Below are positions 1-10,920 of a stretch of 42,822 nucleotides of DNA, in pieces (positions within the stretch are counted from its first letter, which is position 1; every line of letters begins with the position of its first letter). The notes under the pieces were generated by a model. It did no database searches and was not told the origin of the DNA. It saw nothing but the letters and a program-made list of their open reading frames with translations. Location: NCBI GenBank assembly GCA_011322365.1, contig DRNA01000142.1, positions 1 to 42,822 on the forward strand, read 5' to 3'. Source of the DNA: Aeromonadales bacterium (GTDB lineage Bacteria > Pseudomonadota > Gammaproteobacteria > Enterobacterales > GCA-002770795). Made by a program: the position numbers and the translations under genes.

Positions 1-500
1 AATTTCTTGCTGATTCTGGCACCGTGGATGCGTTCGGACACAGTCAACTGGGCGGCGTTGCGCCGGTAATAGCCAATATGGTCAAAGAGAAACTGGGTTA
101 TAAATATCACTGGGCAGTTTCAGATTACCTGCAACGAGCGGCCAGACATATCGCTTCAAAAACAGACGTAGAACAGGCCTATGCTATGGGAAAAGCCGCC
201 ATGGAATTTGCCCTGGCCGGAAAAAATGCCACTCTACCCATTATTAAAAGAGACAGTCAGCAACCCTATAGTTGGTCCATCGGTGAAGCGGCTCTGGGTG
301 ATGTCGCTAACGTAGAAAAAATGCTACCGCAAGATTACATCACCGACGATGGTTTCGGCATCACCGAAAAAGCCCGCGCCTACCTGCAACCCTTAATTTT
401 AGGTGAAGACTATCCACCCTATAAAAATGGCTTACCTGACTATGTGGTATTAAACAATATTCTGGTAGAAAAAAAACTGAAAGAAGGATTTGATATTTAA
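1..500 (+). CDS. pfp: PPi-dependent 6-phosphofructokinase, C-terminal part (cut by window edge)
   Basis: The frame is open from base 3 with no start inside the window, so the gene begins upstream. The visible 165 or so residues include FGHSQLGGVAPVIANMVKEK, YLQRAARHIASKTDVEQAY, GKAAMEFALAGKNA and a C-terminus ending in LKEGFDI. I recognise these as the C-terminal region of the long bacterial pyrophosphate-fructose-6-phosphate 1-phosphotransferases of the kind characterised in methanotrophs. The enzyme reversibly phosphorylates fructose 6-phosphate with PPi in the cytoplasm. The catalytic N-terminal half lies outside the window, so phosphate-donor specificity rests on overall resemblance. In Methylococcus-type genomes pfp is linked to a V-type pyrophosphatase gene. 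Here hppA is 7.5 kb away on the other strand, with unrelated genes between them. Confidence 0.85.
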   Translation, partial: FLADSGTVDAFGHSQLGGVAPVIANMVKEKLGYKYHWAVSDYLQRAARHIASKTDVEQAYAMGKAAMEFALAGKNATLPIIKRDSQQPYSWSIGEAALGDVANVEKMLPQDYITDDGFGITEKARAYLQPLILGEDYPPYKNGLPDYVVLNNILVEKKLKEGFDI

Positions 501-510
501 ATAAATTAAA

Positions 511-903
511 ATGAACCGCATCCCCACAAAAATTATTGTATGGGTATATACCTATTGGATATTATTGATTAATTTACTGGTCGCTTTAACCTCGCCCGTT
601 TTAACCGGCCGTTATGATTATTCCTTCATCATTCCAAATACGGTTTTCGCTGTTATCTGTGCAACAACTCAATTGCATGTTCACCTGGTCAACAATAAAC
701 AACCGGTGACATTTTTTCGCCAGTTATTTTATTTTCACATAGTGACCATTTTCTATGTCTTTATCAGCATGTTCATTTTGGATGATGGCTCTATCACTTT
801 TTTGGGTGTGGTAGTTTTATTGGCTCTCAGTCTATTTATCGCCATTCCATTAGCTTTAATAGCGCTATTCGTCTACAAACGTATTTTAAAATATGATATT
901 TAA
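511..903 (+). CDS. Small four-helix membrane protein, unknown function
   Basis: This 130-residue protein is almost entirely hydrophobic. It has about four predicted membrane segments, near residues 8-30, 40-58, 70-93 and 97-122, and ends in a short basic tail (YKRILKYDI). No signal peptide, catalytic motif or recognisable family signature is visible. It starts 10 bases after the pfp stop without a clear Shine-Dalgarno sequence, so it may be translated from the pfp transcript. I do not recognise the family. The unbroken frame and well-spaced membrane segments favour a real gene over a chance ORF. Confidence 0.6.
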   Translation: MNRIPTKIIVWVYTYWILLINLLVALTSPVLTGRYDYSFIIPNTVFAVICATTQLHVHLVNNKQPVTFFRQLFYFHIVTIFYVFISMFILDDGSITFLGVVVLLALSLFIAIPLALIALFVYKRILKYDI

Positions 904-1242: not shown

Positions 1243-2598
1243 ATGAGTTTAAAAAACCATCCACCAATGTCCAGTCAACAGGGTAAGTCCAAATATTTTA
1301 AAAAGAATTCTGGATTTGCATTCGACTCCCTTGAATCCGTTAGAAAGAAATTACTCGATTTAAGTGGTCGTAACACACTATTAAATTACAGGCATCCAAA
1401 GGCAAGTTGTATCCGGTTAATTGATGAGTTACCCGATCAAATATATGAAGTCTTAACTTTAGGAAAAGTTTTTACCTTTATTCCGGTTCCTGAACCAACA
1501 GAACGAGAATTAATAGAGGCCGGATATATTGAAGTCGACCCTGTTTCAAAGCAGAAAACATCGATTGAGTATCCAACTGCGGAGCAATGGGCTAAATATC
1601 TTGGGTTAGATACTCGTTATGATTTACCTGAAGCTGAAATTACAGATGATAGAATAGAGAAACATCAGGATACTAATTTACAAACTTTGTTGTATGCAGC
1701 TGAGTTGGAGGCTCGTCTTAGAAGTATTCGTAGTAAAGCGGAAACAGCCATAGAAGAAAGTGGCAGCAATATTCTTTATTTGGCTTTGGGTTTTTTAGAG
1801 TGGTATGAAAGTCGTGATTCTGATGTTAAACGAATGGCTCCGTTATTTACACTGCCTGTTCAGCTCGAAAGATCTAAGCTGGACAGGTCGCAAGGAGTTT
1901 ACCGGTACACACTAACGCTTAAAGATGACGGTCTATTAACAAATATAACTTTTCTTGAAAAATTGGCACATGATTTCGATCTTATCTTGCCTCTTATTGA
2001 TGAGGATTTATCGCCTGAAGTTTATTATCGGAATATCAAAAATACTATATTAGAACATCAACCGAAATGGAAAATACGCAGGCAAGCAAGCTTGGTCCTT
2101 CTTAATTTTGCTAAACAGGCAATGTATCAGGATTTAAATCCTGATAACTGGCCAGATGATTCTCGTATTGATAATCATGAATTAATTAAAATGTTTTTTG
2201 GCGGGAAAACTGAATCGAGTGGGGGGGATGGTTTGTCTTATGCAACTGAACATCCAATTGATGATATTCAAGATGCTCATGATAAATTCCCATTAATTTA
2301 TGATGCAGATAGTTCTCAGCATAGCGCGCTGATTGATGCTGTGGAAGGTCATAACCTGGTTATAGAAGGGCCACCAGGTTCTGGAAAGTCACAGACAATT
2401 ACAAATTTAATATCAGCTTGTATCGCAAATGGTAAAAAAGTTCTTTTTGTAGCTGAGAAAATGGCTGCATTAAATGTTGTAAAGAATCGATTGGACAAAG
2501 CTGACTTAGGTGATTTTTGTTTAGAGCTGCATAGTCATAAAACTCATAAGCTGAAAATACTTCAGGATTTAACAAAAAGGTTAAATAAACAAAAGTGA
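1243..2598 (+). CDS. DUF4011 / SF1 helicase-nuclease, N-terminal part of a frameshifted gene
   Basis: 451 residues. Near residue 30 the segment VRKKLLDLSGRNTLLNYRHP is the hallmark N-terminal motif of DUF4011 proteins. A Walker A motif GPPGSGKS lies at residues 376-383, followed by the Ia-like segment KKVLFVAEKMAALNVVKNRL. The reading frame stops at 2596-2598, just after the first helicase motifs. The rest of the helicase continues in the next frame from about 2597 (see the 2672-6736 entry). The start is supported by GGAAG about 8 bases upstream. An intact protein would be about 1,830 residues, typical of DUF4011 helicase-nucleases. Such proteins (DUF4011, SF1 helicase, Vsr-like nuclease) have been listed among candidate antiphage systems under the name Hhe; that name is from memory. 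On its own this fragment lacks Walker B and the nuclease. Confidence 0.85.
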   Translation: MSLKNHPPMSSQQGKSKYFKKNSGFAFDSLESVRKKLLDLSGRNTLLNYRHPKASCIRLIDELPDQIYEVLTLGKVFTFIPVPEPTERELIEAGYIEVDPVSKQKTSIEYPTAEQWAKYLGLDTRYDLPEAEITDDRIEKHQDTNLQTLLYAAELEARLRSIRSKAETAIEESGSNILYLALGFLEWYESRDSDVKRMAPLFTLPVQLERSKLDRSQGVYRYTLTLKDDGLLTNITFLEKLAHDFDLILPLIDEDLSPEVYYRNIKNTILEHQPKWKIRRQASLVLLNFAKQAMYQDLNPDNWPDDSRIDNHELIKMFFGGKTESSGGDGLSYATEHPIDDIQDAHDKFPLIYDADSSQHSALIDAVEGHNLVIEGPPGSGKSQTITNLISACIANGKKVLFVAEKMAALNVVKNRLDKADLGDFCLELHSHKTHKLKILQDLTKRLNKQK

Positions 2599-2671
2599 AT
2601 ACAGGTCCCCATCTAGTATAAAAGCTGATATAGAGCGCTATGAAGATTTAAAAGAAAAATTAAGCGAATAT

Positions 2672-5600
2672 ATGCAGGAGATAAATAGTAAATGGGAAAA
2701 TACAGGTCTTACGATTCATGAGATTTTGAATAAAGCTACACGATACCGCGAGCACTACGGTATTAATCCCGACATTTTAAAAATTGAAGGGATTAATGGT
2801 CAGGTATTAACTCAGGTAAAACAGAAGGAATTAATCGATCAGGCTGATATGTTGGCCAATATATATGATCAGATTTCTGAGCAGGCAAAAGATTCTGTAA
2901 TAGCAAATCACTATTGGTATGGTGTGAATAATGCTGAGTTAAAAGGTTATCAATTAGATGAATTAAATTCTCATTTAAATACCTGGTCAGACAGTCTTCA
3001 GAAGATGTACCAATACTGGTCTGGTATCGTATCAGAATATCAATTGAATATTGATGCAAATACATCGCTTAGTGAGATACAGGGGTTTATAGCATCATTA
3101 GGTCAATTGCCAGGCCTGAATGGGGATGAGGTACTGTCTGATATTACATATATCAATACTCATAACGACCAGTTTGCCCATATGATTGAAGAGTATAAGC
3201 GTATACATTGCGTTATTGATAGCTTAAGCGATGCAATAAATTCTGAGTTTGTGAATAAGCCAGAGTCTACCAGTATACTGACTAGTTGCTTAAGTGTATT
3301 TCAGAGGCTTGGGGTCGGTTCTGATATTACATTAGATGAAATATCCGATGATACTAATAAACTGAGTCAGTTAAATGAATTAATTAAAACACTTAAGAAG
3401 CAATTTGATCAGATAAGAGTAAGTGTGCCGGGAGATTTAAAGCTTTGTTTTGAAGTTACACCAAACGGGCTTAAAGAATTCTCAGTTTTAATTACTTTGA
3501 TTAATAAGCTGCCTGCTGAGTTATGGCGGCACAGAGATGAATTGTTTGATAACCCTGATCTTGATGGCTTACTTAGTCAGCTTACCAATAAACTTCGTGA
3601 TCTTACACCTATACATCAAGAATTGCTTGATGAGTTTAGTTTACATCGGTTGCCCAGTAGTGATGAGCTAGTTAAATATAAAGAAATATTAGATAGCGCC
3701 GGATTATTCTGTATATTCTCAAGTGAGTGGCGTAATACTAAAAAATCTGTACTTAATTTATCGGCTAAACCGAAGCCTGATAAAAAGAAATTATTAAGCC
3801 ACCTCTCGGATTTAATCTCTTATGTACAGGGTGTTGAGGAGATGGATAAATTAAATAATCAAGATCCTATACTTAATGAGCTGTATCGTGGAATTGATAC
3901 ACCAATGGATAGAATTATTGCATTAAGAGAGTGGTTTCAGGCTGTTAGAAATGAATATGGAGTCGGGTTTGGAGATCGTGTTTCTATAGCTAATGCGTTG
4001 CTTGTTCTTGATAGAAATCTGGCTATCAGTATTGTCGATGTTGCTAAACATGGTTTATTGGGTGAAGTTGACTCTGTCTCTGCAATTCTACGAAATATGG
4101 TAGGTAAATATACAGAGTTTCAGGGATTTAATAACGATCAGGTTCATTTGGATGGTGAAAATAATCCAGTTAATGAATTGCGAGAGTTTCTTGTATCCAG
4201 TGTAGAAAAGCTGTCACATGTCATAGTGGGTAATAATTTGACAATTTATAAAATGTTATCAATGAATGATCAGCTAAAAACACTTCATAAAGATATAGGT
4301 GCATGGCTTCAAAGTGAAACATCACAGCATTTTGTGCCTGGTATCTTACCTCTTTCAATGAGGTCAGGTGAATTTTCTGATAAGTATTATACAGCTTCAA
4401 ATAATACTTTAAACATATCTAAGATATTAATGGATAGTCCTGCACTTACTAACTCCATAGTCAGTTCCCCGAATTCTGAAAGATATAATGATTTGCGTAA
4501 ATGCTTGCCTGAACTTAAGAATTTTGAATTAGATCTTATTAAGAATAGAGATTTGTTCGTGAAACTGGGCAAAGTGAATTTATCTGAATGGTTTGAACTG
4601 TCTGGTGATGAAATAAATAATATTTTACTCAGAAATAGATTGGCACTGGATAACCCTAATTGGTTAAATACCTGGCTTGATTATGTGAGGTTAAGAGAAA
4701 AATTATATTCAAAAGGCTTAAATAATATTATAGATGGCCTGGAGTCTGAAAAAATACAGACCAAAGATCTAAAGGATATTCTTCAGCTGATTATGTATCA
4801 TCAGTTGGCTGAAGAGATATTTTCTGAACATAGTTATTTGTCTCAGTTTAGTGGTATGGAGCAAATGGCTATTCGTGAAAAATATCAGGAATATGATCGA
4901 AAGTTAATGTCGCTTCAGCGTCAAAAAATTGCATATAAGTCTTCAAGAACCAAGCCACCTGTTGGCAATTCTAGCAGTAAAGTATCAACATTTACTGAAA
5001 CATCGCTAATTAAACACGAAGCAGGTAAAAAGACGCGGCACGTTGCCGTAAGAAGTCTCCTAAAACGGGCAGGGAAGTCAATACAGGCGCTCAAGCCCTG
5101 CTTTATGATGAGTCCAATGTCTGTTGCTCAGTATCTGGTGCCAGGGCAGTTTAAGTTTGACCTAGTAGTTATGGATGAGACATCACAGATTAGGCCAGAG
5201 GATGCATTAGGCTCTATAGCTCGTGGATCTAAATTAGTGGTTGTTGGTGATCCTAAACAGCTACCACCTACGACCTTTTTTAGTAGAACGCTGACGAATG
5301 AAGATAGTGAAGATGCTGTGGCATTAGAAGAGTCTGAAAGTATTCTTGAATCAGTAATTCCTATGTTCAAGACGCGTCGTCTGCGTTGGCATTATCGTTC
5401 AAGGCATGAGTCTTTAATCGCATTTTCAAACCAGAATTTTTATGATTCTAACTTAATACTGTTTCCATCACCTTTTCAGCAATCTGAAGAATTTGGTATT
5501 CGATTTAAACGTGTACCTAGGGGGCGCTTTCATGCTCGTCGCAATGTGGAAGAAGCTCGTAAGGTCGTTAATGCAGTTTCTGAACAGTTAAAGAAAAATC

Positions 5601-6736
5601 CTCATGAATCAGTTGGTGTTGTGGCAATGAACACTGAGCAACAAGCTGAGATTGAGGCCCAACTAGATCAGTTGGCGAAGGATGATCCATTTTTAGCTGA
5701 GGCCAGGGATATGAATCGAACTTCTGATGAGCCCTTGTTTATTAAAAACCTTGAAAATGTACAGGGTGATGAGAGAGATGTCATCATGATCTCCATGACC
5801 TATGGGCCTGAACAGGTAGGAAGTAGCACGATGCATCAGAGATTTGGGCCTATAAATTCAAATGTGGGCTGGCGTCGTCTTAATGTATTGTTTACTCGCT
5901 CTAAGAAAAGGATGCATATATTCTCAACCATGTCATCTGGTCATATACGGGCTAGTAACAGTAGTAGTCGTGGACTGAAGGCTTTAAAAGCGTTTCTTGA
6001 GTATTGTGAAACCGGTCATTTAAATCAGTCCGTTCATACAGGCAAACCGGCAGATAGTGATTTCGAGATAGCAGTAATGCGAGAATTAACTCAACATGGA
6101 TATGAATGTGAACCACAATTAGGTGTGGCAGGTTATTATCTTGATCTAGCCGTACGTGACCCAGGCCAACCAGGACGATTTTTGATGGGGGTTGAATGTG
6201 ATGGTGCAACTTATCACTCAGCAAAATCTACCCGTGACAGAGATAGGCTGCGTCAGGAAATTTTAGAGAATCTCGGCTGGAGAATAAGGCGTATTTGGTC
6301 GACTGACTGGTTTAAGAACCCGAAGGCTCAAATCCAACCAATTCTTCAGGATCTTGATAAATTAAAGACACCAATTGTAGAAGCAGATGACCTAGTTCAC
6401 AAAGGTGAAGTGGTGAGTGAGAAAGTTATATCAGCAACACAGGAGCTGTTAGATTTACCTGTAGATGAATATCAATATGATACCGACAATAATATTGACT
6501 TAAAAGAACGTTTGGTGTCTTTCTCTAAAAACATAATCAATAAAAATCTACCTCATGTGAATGATGATCATCGATTATTACGCCCTGCGATGATAGAAGC
6601 ATTACTAAATCACCTTCCGTGTTCTAAGGCTGAGTTTCTAGAAAAAATGCCCGCTTATCTTCGAATAAGCACGGATGTACAAGAGGCTCAACAATACTTA
6701 GATGATGTATTGGAATTAATAGCAGATTATGGATAA
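2672..6736 (+). CDS. DUF4011 / SF1 helicase-nuclease, C-terminal part of a frameshifted gene
   Basis: 1,354 residues from the first ATG, but the frame is open from 2585. Its pre-ATG codons read SEYRSPSSIKADIERYEDLK, which continues the upstream protein. A long mostly helical insert (about residues 1-800) precedes the second half of an SF1 helicase: Walker B VVMDETSQ (D835, E836), GDPKQLPP, RLRWHYRSRHESLI, NVQGDERDVIMIS and the arginine-finger segment NVLFTRSKKR. A Vsr-like / MTES_1575-type PD-(D/E)xK nuclease follows at about residues 1128-1225, with YYLDLAV (D1158) and VECDG (E1175, D1177). A C-terminal helical segment ends the protein. There is no second-gene start signal at 2672, so this is the separated half of one gene, not an independent one. 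Walker A lies in the other fragment, so neither piece should be an active helicase alone. Confidence 0.85.
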   Translation: MQEINSKWENTGLTIHEILNKATRYREHYGINPDILKIEGINGQVLTQVKQKELIDQADMLANIYDQISEQAKDSVIANHYWYGVNNAELKGYQLDELNSHLNTWSDSLQKMYQYWSGIVSEYQLNIDANTSLSEIQGFIASLGQLPGLNGDEVLSDITYINTHNDQFAHMIEEYKRIHCVIDSLSDAINSEFVNKPESTSILTSCLSVFQRLGVGSDITLDEISDDTNKLSQLNELIKTLKKQFDQIRVSVPGDLKLCFEVTPNGLKEFSVLITLINKLPAELWRHRDELFDNPDLDGLLSQLTNKLRDLTPIHQELLDEFSLHRLPSSDELVKYKEILDSAGLFCIFSSEWRNTKKSVLNLSAKPKPDKKKLLSHLSDLISYVQGVEEMDKLNNQDPILNELYRGIDTPMDRIIALREWFQAVRNEYGVGFGDRVSIANALLVLDRNLAISIVDVAKHGLLGEVDSVSAILRNMVGKYTEFQGFNNDQVHLDGENNPVNELREFLVSSVEKLSHVIVGNNLTIYKMLSMNDQLKTLHKDIGAWLQSETSQHFVPGILPLSMRSGEFSDKYYTASNNTLNISKILMDSPALTNSIVSSPNSERYNDLRKCLPELKNFELDLIKNRDLFVKLGKVNLSEWFELSGDEINNILLRNRLALDNPNWLNTWLDYVRLREKLYSKGLNNIIDGLESEKIQTKDLKDILQLIMYHQLAEEIFSEHSYLSQFSGMEQMAIREKYQEYDRKLMSLQRQKIAYKSSRTKPPVGNSSSKVSTFTETSLIKHEAGKKTRHVAVRSLLKRAGKSIQALKPCFMMSPMSVAQYLVPGQFKFDLVVMDETSQIRPEDALGSIARGSKLVVVGDPKQLPPTTFFSRTLTNEDSEDAVALEESESILESVIPMFKTRRLRWHYRSRHESLIAFSNQNFYDSNLILFPSPFQQSEEFGIRFKRVPRGRFHARRNVEEARKVVNAVSEQLKKNPHESVGVVAMNTEQQAEIEAQLDQLAKDDPFLAEARDMNRTSDEPLFIKNLENVQGDERDVIMISMTYGPEQVGSSTMHQRFGPINSNVGWRRLNVLFTRSKKRMHIFSTMSSGHIRASNSSSRGLKALKAFLEYCETGHLNQSVHTGKPADSDFEIAVMRELTQHGYECEPQLGVAGYYLDLAVRDPGQPGRFLMGVECDGATYHSAKSTRDRDRLRQEILENLGWRIRRIWSTDWFKNPKAQIQPILQDLDKLKTPIVEADDLVHKGEVVSEKVISATQELLDLPVDEYQYDTDNNIDLKERLVSFSKNIINKNLPHVNDDHRLLRPAMIEALLNHLPCSKAEFLEKMPAYLRISTDVQEAQQYLDDVLELIADYG

Positions 6737-6747
6737 AGGATAACAGC

Positions 6748-7911
6748 TTACCACCGAGCCTTACCAATATAAGTACTTTTGATAAGATGATTAAATAGAT
6801 CAACCTGTTCTTCAGAAAACTGTTTATTTTTTTCAGTATTTATTTCTCTTACTGCCGTCATTAAGGTTTTTTTATAGGATCGATCGGCACGATCACTGGT
6901 GATTGCTATAAAAGTATCGGTCATAGCAAGGATAACCGCACCAATGGGGATATCATCACCGTCTAATCTATCAGGATAACCTTTGCCATCATAACGTTCA
7001 TGGTGACATTTTAAAATATTGGCCGCCTCTGAAAATCCGGGGATCTGATTGAGTAACCCTGCCGCAATATGAACATGGTTTTGTACAATTTTAGTTTCCT
7101 TTTCATTCAGAGCCGATGATTTATTTAAAATATGTTCGGGAACCATACGCATACTGAATTCATGCACAAATACTGCAGCTTTTAACTGGATCTCATCCAC
7201 GGCATTTGAAAATTGCTGATTTAAATCTTCACTCAGTTGCAGGGTACGCTGAAGGCGAATAGGACGCCATTCATCCAGCACATAAGCAGTAGTCACCAGA
7301 TCTTCAAAAAATGACAATGAATCTGTCATTTTTTCCGCTTTCATCAGCTCACATTTCGATACATTGTGTTCTTCATGCATTGAAGTTTGTTGCTCTTTTT
7401 CAAGTCGCTGTTGTTGATCGGTTGTGGCTATCTCCAGAGAAAAATGTGCCTGTAAAATAGCATCGGTGCAAAGACCGGCAAGCTTAACACGGTCAGCATC
7501 ATCGGCATGGTGAACAGCTGAGGTTAGTTGTGCCAGCTGATTAAGTAATTGCTGATCACCCAAACCATTATTCATAATGTTTCGAAGCACTTCATCGGTC
7601 TCATGTATAACGGCCTGAAAAAATTCTCCATAACTGGCGTGATAGGGATAAGAGCCATCCCTGACATCGGTGACAATTTCCTCTAATTCGTGCAGGGATT
7701 CGACAATGGGAGCCAGAAAAACCATATTACAATTCCCTTTCACAGAATGAACCGCTCGAAAAAGCTCATTCAAATCATCCATATTATTATTTTCCGCAAG
7801 TCTGTCCACGCAACCATCCATAATTTCAATGGATTCCTGCGTACTGGCATAAAAATCTTCTTTAAGCTCTTGCTCGAGTTGGTCAAACTCCGGGCAGTTA
7901 AAATCCATCAT
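6748..7911 (-). CDS. HPt domain fused to a degenerate HD-GYP domain
   Basis: The N-terminal 120 residues form a histidine phosphotransfer domain with the phospho-acceptor motif HSVKGN near residue 55. A charged helical linker of about 80 residues leads to an HD-GYP domain (about residues 230-385) with HHERYDGKGYP, the hallmark GYP signature. In active c-di-GMP phosphodiesterases the first metal motif reads HDxGK; here the aligned segment is VHEFSMRMVPEHIL, with HE in place of HD and SM in place of GK. Downstream NHVHIAAGLL and AMTD are retained. It may therefore bind rather than cleave c-di-GMP, or be inactive. I chose the ATG at 7911 over an in-frame TTG at 7917; neither has a clear ribosome site. 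It converges on the helicase-nuclease gene with 11 bases between stops. No partner kinase is adjacent. Confidence 0.8.
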   Translation of the reverse strand: MMDFNCPEFDQLEQELKEDFYASTQESIEIMDGCVDRLAENNNMDDLNELFRAVHSVKGNCNMVFLAPIVESLHELEEIVTDVRDGSYPYHASYGEFFQAVIHETDEVLRNIMNNGLGDQQLLNQLAQLTSAVHHADDADRVKLAGLCTDAILQAHFSLEIATTDQQQRLEKEQQTSMHEEHNVSKCELMKAEKMTDSLSFFEDLVTTAYVLDEWRPIRLQRTLQLSEDLNQQFSNAVDEIQLKAAVFVHEFSMRMVPEHILNKSSALNEKETKIVQNHVHIAAGLLNQIPGFSEAANILKCHHERYDGKGYPDRLDGDDIPIGAVILAMTDTFIAITSDRADRSYKKTLMTAVREINTEKNKQFSEEQVDLFNHLIKSTYIGKARW

Positions 7912-8001
7912 AAACAATCGGTTGTTTTAATTATGGCTAACTCCATTATGGCAAAAATCTAACAAATCTCCACTTATCGGTACCTGTTCCGAAAAAATAA
8001 C

Positions 8002-10371: not shown

Positions 10372-10920
10372 ATGAGTTTAAATAAGATTGCATCAGGACA
10401 AAATGTCCCAGAAGAAATTAACGTAATTATAGAAATCCCCGCCCACTCTGATCCAGTCAAATATGAAGTGGATAAAGATTCTGGAGCATTGTTTGTGGAT
10501 CGATTTATGTCAACTTGCATGCACTATCCATGTAATTACGGCTATGTTCCTCATTCTCTCTCGAATGATGGTGACCCGGTAGATGTGCTGGTGCCAACAC
10601 CTTATCCATTACAGGCAGGTTCGGTCATCCGTTGTCGACCCGTTGGTGTCTTGAATATGACGGATGAAAGTGGAGAAGATGCCAAGATTATTGCCGTGCC
10701 TGCAGATAGTCTAAGCCGGGTTTACCGGGGTATTAATGAAGCCAGCGAACTTAATCAACTCTTGCTCGATCAAATTGTGCACTTTTTTGAACATTATAAA
10801 GATCTTGAACCCAGTAAATGGGTTAAAATAATCGGCTGGGCAGATGCAGCGGCCGCAAAAAAAGAAATTGTAGATAGTATCCAACGATACGAAAATATCA
10901 CTGAGAAGCCTGCTTTTTAA
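10372..10920 (+). CDS. ppa: Soluble family I inorganic pyrophosphatase
   Basis: 182 residues, close to the E. coli enzyme (176). It hydrolyses pyrophosphate to phosphate in the cytoplasm. The signature D-x-D-x-x-D appears as DGDPVD (D66, D68, D71), preceded by [11 protein letters not shown] and followed by EDAKIIAVP and SKWVKIIGW, all family I markers. It is transcribed away from hppA. Coexistence of a soluble pyrophosphatase with a PPi-conserving membrane pump and a PPi-using PFK implies the cell controls how PPi energy is used or dissipated; shared control through the 311-base intergenic region is possible but not shown. Confidence 0.97.

Follow-up and report, generated by a model that had tools for sequence, protein, structure and literature searches.

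The window analysed here is a stretch of 42,822 nt, taken from the forward strand of contig DRNA01000142.1 in the Aeromonadales bacterium assembly GCA_011322365.1. The source bin is metagenome-like and comprises 497 contigs. Close to the left end of the window lies a copy of hhe that is divided between two reading frames, in a segment inserted between pfp and a gene for an Hpt-HD domain protein. The features of the locus are:

24..500, + strand: C-terminal part of pfp (PPi-dependent phosphofructokinase), the left flank, cut by the contig start
501..6747, no strand assigned: inserted segment between pfp and the Hpt-HD gene
511..903, + strand: 130-aa hydrophobic (membrane) ORF in the inserted segment, without a family match
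1243..2598, + strand: N-terminal part of hhe, with DUF4011 (9.4e-41) and the Walker A half of the SF1 helicase; positions 1-423 of 1797 in the Hhe profile
2585..2599, + strand: frameshift interval, with one net extra base relative to homologues
2600..6736, + strand: C-terminal part of hhe, with the middle region, helicase motifs II-VI and the MTES_1575/Vsr-like nuclease (MTES_1575 2.4e-36); positions 425-1797 in the Hhe profile
6748..7917, - strand: Hpt-HD domain protein, the right flank, convergent with hhe

The ORF of the N part (1243-2598, + strand) encodes 451 aa and terminates at the TGA at 2596-2598. The frame of the C part is offset one base further on and is free of stops from 2585 to 6736; counted from its first ATG at 2672 it gives an ORF of 1354 aa (2672-6736, + strand). 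Upstream, the C frame has its last stop at 2582, which, together with the TGA of the N frame, confines the change of frame to 2585-2598. Alignment of homologues at the site reveals a conserved pattern R-x-N-x-Q-x-x-Y/F-R, in which the Gln is separated from the Tyr or Phe by exactly two codons (6 nt) in most homologues, compared with 7 nt in the window (2593-2599). Thus there is one net extra base. Intact homologues, with about 43-68% identity over the N part, cross the site in a single frame. An earlier note on this DNA had proposed that one A be removed from the AAAA run at 2591-2594, and that relatives be compared at the site. The net extra base is upheld by that comparison, most relatives having one base fewer, but its assignment to the AAAA run is not. 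Judged from the alignment, the identity of the extra base is not given by such distant relatives, and several positions, the AAAA run among them, would fit.

For comparison with known families we used a read-through translation in which the four-letter word TGAA, occurring once in frame, was taken as one residue. The resulting 1,830-residue protein scores 2467.7 bits against the NCBIfam Hhe profile NF042953 (cut-off 2000) and covers the whole profile, positions 1-1797. Separately the halves score 707.1 and 1741.4 bits, both under the cut-off, and match positions 1-423 and 425-1797. Since these are consecutive parts of one profile, a chance pairing of the two ORFs is excluded, and the proposal that the two frames represent one protein of about 1,830 residues is borne out. 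PADLOC and NCBIfam agree on the name Hhe (PDLC02194; NF042953; HheA, 'Gao-Hhe'). The N part contains the DUF4011 domain PF13195 (9.4e-41, 139.9 bits against a threshold of 22.2) and the Walker A sequence GPPGSGKS at residue 376. The C part matches AAA_11/AAA_12, and contains the Walker B sequence DETSQ at about 5171 along with helicase motifs III-VI. It also carries the MTES_1575 nuclease PF18741 (Vsr-like; residues about 1605-1705, 2.4e-36), of which the motifs D, ECDG and RIWSTDWF are conserved relative to homologues. All the SF1 helicase motifs (Walker A, Walker B and III-VI) are therefore present and conserved, divided between the two frames with Walker A on one side and Walker B and the nuclease on the other, as the earlier note had described.

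The domain order and the full coverage of the profile are those of Hhe (NF042953; PDLC02194). Hhe is a single gene and a single intact ORF is expected of it, whereas the frame of the window copy is broken within 2585-2598. On its profile and domain matches the locus is a member of Hhe by descent; a working anti-phage protein is not implied. ProA (NF058533; PADLOC PDC-S37) has DUF4011, the helicase and the MTES_1575 nuclease in common with it and is homologous over most of the length, but the read-through protein scores 1134.3 bits against the ProA cut-off of 1500, so that ProA is a related family and not the identity of this gene. In a full-text search of the literature DUF4011 turns up in just three papers. 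HheA has been named among defence helicases (PMC12278908). 'Hhe' has also been expanded as haloacid dehalogenase-like hydrolases (PMC12189261), a reading at odds with the domains of this gene.

How did the gene come to be at this location? In both same-family genomes compared (L266 and L267) the site is empty, with pfp followed by the Hpt-HD gene within about 20-50 nt, whereas in the window the two are separated by 6.2 kb comprising the 130-aa membrane ORF and hhe. No homologue of the 130-aa ORF was found beside other hhe genes or in the same-family genomes. The closest homologues of hhe are scattered among deltaproteobacterial, planctomycete, fusobacterial and gammaproteobacterial genomes. 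Plasmid records carrying a homologue of the N part number 342, and 215 of these are predicted to be conjugative; on viral contigs there are just three distant homologues. The insertion at an otherwise empty site, the scatter of the homologues and their occurrence on plasmids together argue that hhe was acquired horizontally. Contamination of the bin was ruled out, as the flanks are syntenic with the same-family genomes. A 13-nt direct repeat (12/13) lies at the 3′ ends of pfp (488-500) and of the 130-aa ORF (891-903); it is possibly insertion microhomology, or possibly due to chance. Elsewhere in this genome, short repeats of 60-190 nt that resemble one another at about 90-98% are interspersed over many contigs (including L117, L135, L175, L134, L140, L196, L191, L137 and L182).

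Taken as a whole, the locus is probably a chromosomal copy of Hhe, a known single-gene anti-phage system, that was acquired horizontally and whose inactivation, by one +1-nt indel, is recent. The gene, encoding DUF4011, an SF1 helicase and a Vsr-like nuclease, would have been gained between pfp and the Hpt-HD gene. The indel about 450 codons into hhe would then cause translation to halt at 2596-2598, giving at most a 451-residue fragment containing DUF4011 and the Walker A half, and lacking Walker B, motif VI and the nuclease. Probably very little of the C part is made, its start codons being available only from 2672, with no visible Shine-Dalgarno-like sequence. The function of hhe has thus presumably been lost. 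This looks like ordinary biology, a known defence gene that has been broken, and no new mechanism is implied.

Several features bear on the age of the lesion. A search for a second lesion across the 5.5-kb gene revealed no further stop or shift, in agreement with the earlier note. The protein departs from otherwise invariant positions at six sites, all of them conservative, where intact homologues do so at 0-30, and its helicase motifs and nuclease residues agree with those of the homologues. Given the lack of a second lesion, the retention of the motifs and the few conservative deviations, the gene seems to have been under constraint until recently. The inactivation therefore appears to be recent, though even the nearest homologues have diverged too far for it to be dated; no sister strain carrying the hhe locus was found. 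The intact motifs and the six conservative private deviations rule out a decayed pseudogene with many lesions. An intact paralogue elsewhere is ruled out by the presence of a single DUF4011 gene in the genome, and phase variation at a long homopolymer by a run of only four A. Recent inactivation is the best supported of the three options offered earlier, the others being a sequencing error and +1 recoding.

An error of assembly or consensus would mean that the organism itself carries an unbroken gene, the extra base having arisen in assembling a strain-mixed metagenome. We consider this unlikely, though several observations are in its favour. The bin has strain-variant contig ends. Positions 1-333 of the window overlap contig C365 (L277 1-333) over 333 nt with four SNPs and no indel, the contig break falling inside pfp, and another pair of contigs (L124 and L195) overlap over 802 nt at 96.5%. 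The bin is strain-mixed, and the hhe allele could therefore represent a less abundant variant or a consensus of mixed strains. Disrupted homologues are seemingly commoner in MAGs (6/36) than in isolates (2/44), although the numbers are small. The absence of a second lesion in hhe is likewise what would be expected of an error. Against this, exact 145-nt terminal overlaps exist between sampled contigs of this genome, including the right end of the window, and point to de Bruijn assembly (k~145) from accurate short reads. Such assembly seldom generates indels in a four-base run.

Moreover, when 128 kb of this genome other than hhe were scanned by homology, no further frameshift came to light. 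Proteins for the scan were taken from the loci of the homologues, from a same-order genome of 1.7 Mb and from E. coli K-12, the reference sequence being 40 regions of G023 and stretches of E. coli K-12; 102 of 147 planted indels were recovered in calibration. The 95% upper bound on the frameshift rate is about 1 per 30 kb, i.e. <0.2 per hhe-sized gene, and so leaves room for an error in a gene of 5.5 kb. Genome-wide prediction of frameshifts by dynamic programming on coding potential was abandoned, its 141 candidates being noisy. A stricter scan of ORF pairs left nine, at just 5% sensitivity, and on inspection of the translations most were different adjacent genes; only hhe and a subtilase gene look truly frameshifted. 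The latter, a probable further frameshift that speaks for error, is a subtilase S8 gene at 4961-9252 of L203 (contig C89 of this genome), with the apparent shift at about 5443-5461 inside the Inhibitor_I9 propeptide, beside an A6 run. With accurate short reads, a four-base run and a clean 128-kb scan on the other side, a sequencing error, as one of the options offered earlier, is possible but disfavoured. We infer that the indel is real, whether fixed or a strain variant.

Could the shift be programmed? A ribosome shifting frame at CAA AAG TGA would yield the complete protein at a low or regulated level, and the TGA does sit right at the shift point, a feature common to the programmed +1 frameshift of the prfB type. 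We regard this as very improbable. Homologues keep to a single frame through this point, none having a stop or shift there. In a +1 slip from AAG to AGT the P-site Lys tRNA cannot re-pair, and there is no SD-like element at prfB-like spacing; thus the window lacks the conserved site, the slippery P-site codon and the properly spaced stimulator of the prfB type. The RNA downstream (2599-2690) has a folding energy of -10.4 kcal/mol compared with -10.23 for shuffled sequences (z = -0.06), so that no stimulatory structure, of the sort usual for -1 and -2 shifts, is evident. The +1 recoding suggested in the earlier note is not sustained. A -2 slip would allow tRNA-Lys to re-pair on AAA and enter the C frame, as deduced from the sequence, but such a slip on AAAAG is a rare kind of shift. 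That the TGA might be a regulated recoding point, most plausibly through this -2 slip, silencing a costly helicase-nuclease until stress, is more doubtful still. Least credible of all, to the point of being negligible, is a functional split in which the halves are translated separately and reassembled as an active helicase-nuclease: both are otherwise perfectly conserved, but the first start codon of the C frame (2672) lies 74 nt past the stop without a visible Shine-Dalgarno sequence, the split falls between helicase motifs I and II, and no homologue is split there.

The preferred reading, a recently inactivated hhe, had been linked in the earlier note to autoimmunity or lack of phage pressure. 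Cas1 matches are present on three contigs of this genome (G000 C443, C30 and C175; one in two pieces), from which it is taken to keep CRISPR-type or casposon-like loci, and there is an N6 methylase gene. With these other defence genes present, a lack of phage pressure is unsupported. The locus illustrates cleanly how one base can cost a genome a large single-gene defence system while its other defence genes are kept. Standard annotation would overlook such broken genes, since neither half reaches the family cut-off.

How general is such loss? Among 80 DUF4011 homologues sampled from genome_contigs, eight (about 10%) are disrupted, six in MAGs and two in isolates; this is a lower bound in that contig ends truncate some of the loci, and assembly error may account for a share of the eight. 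Each of the eight (L035, L046, L048, L052, L055, L057, L059 and L081) is broken at a place other than that in the window. Thus loss of the hhe-type gene recurs, as read from these sequences, and disruption of about one in ten in differing places is in keeping with defence genes being often gained and lost. In the hhe of Edwardsiella anguillarum (L046) the frameshift lies at about 10645-10655, where the interval of the shift includes eight consecutive G, plausibly a phase-variation site for a defence gene.
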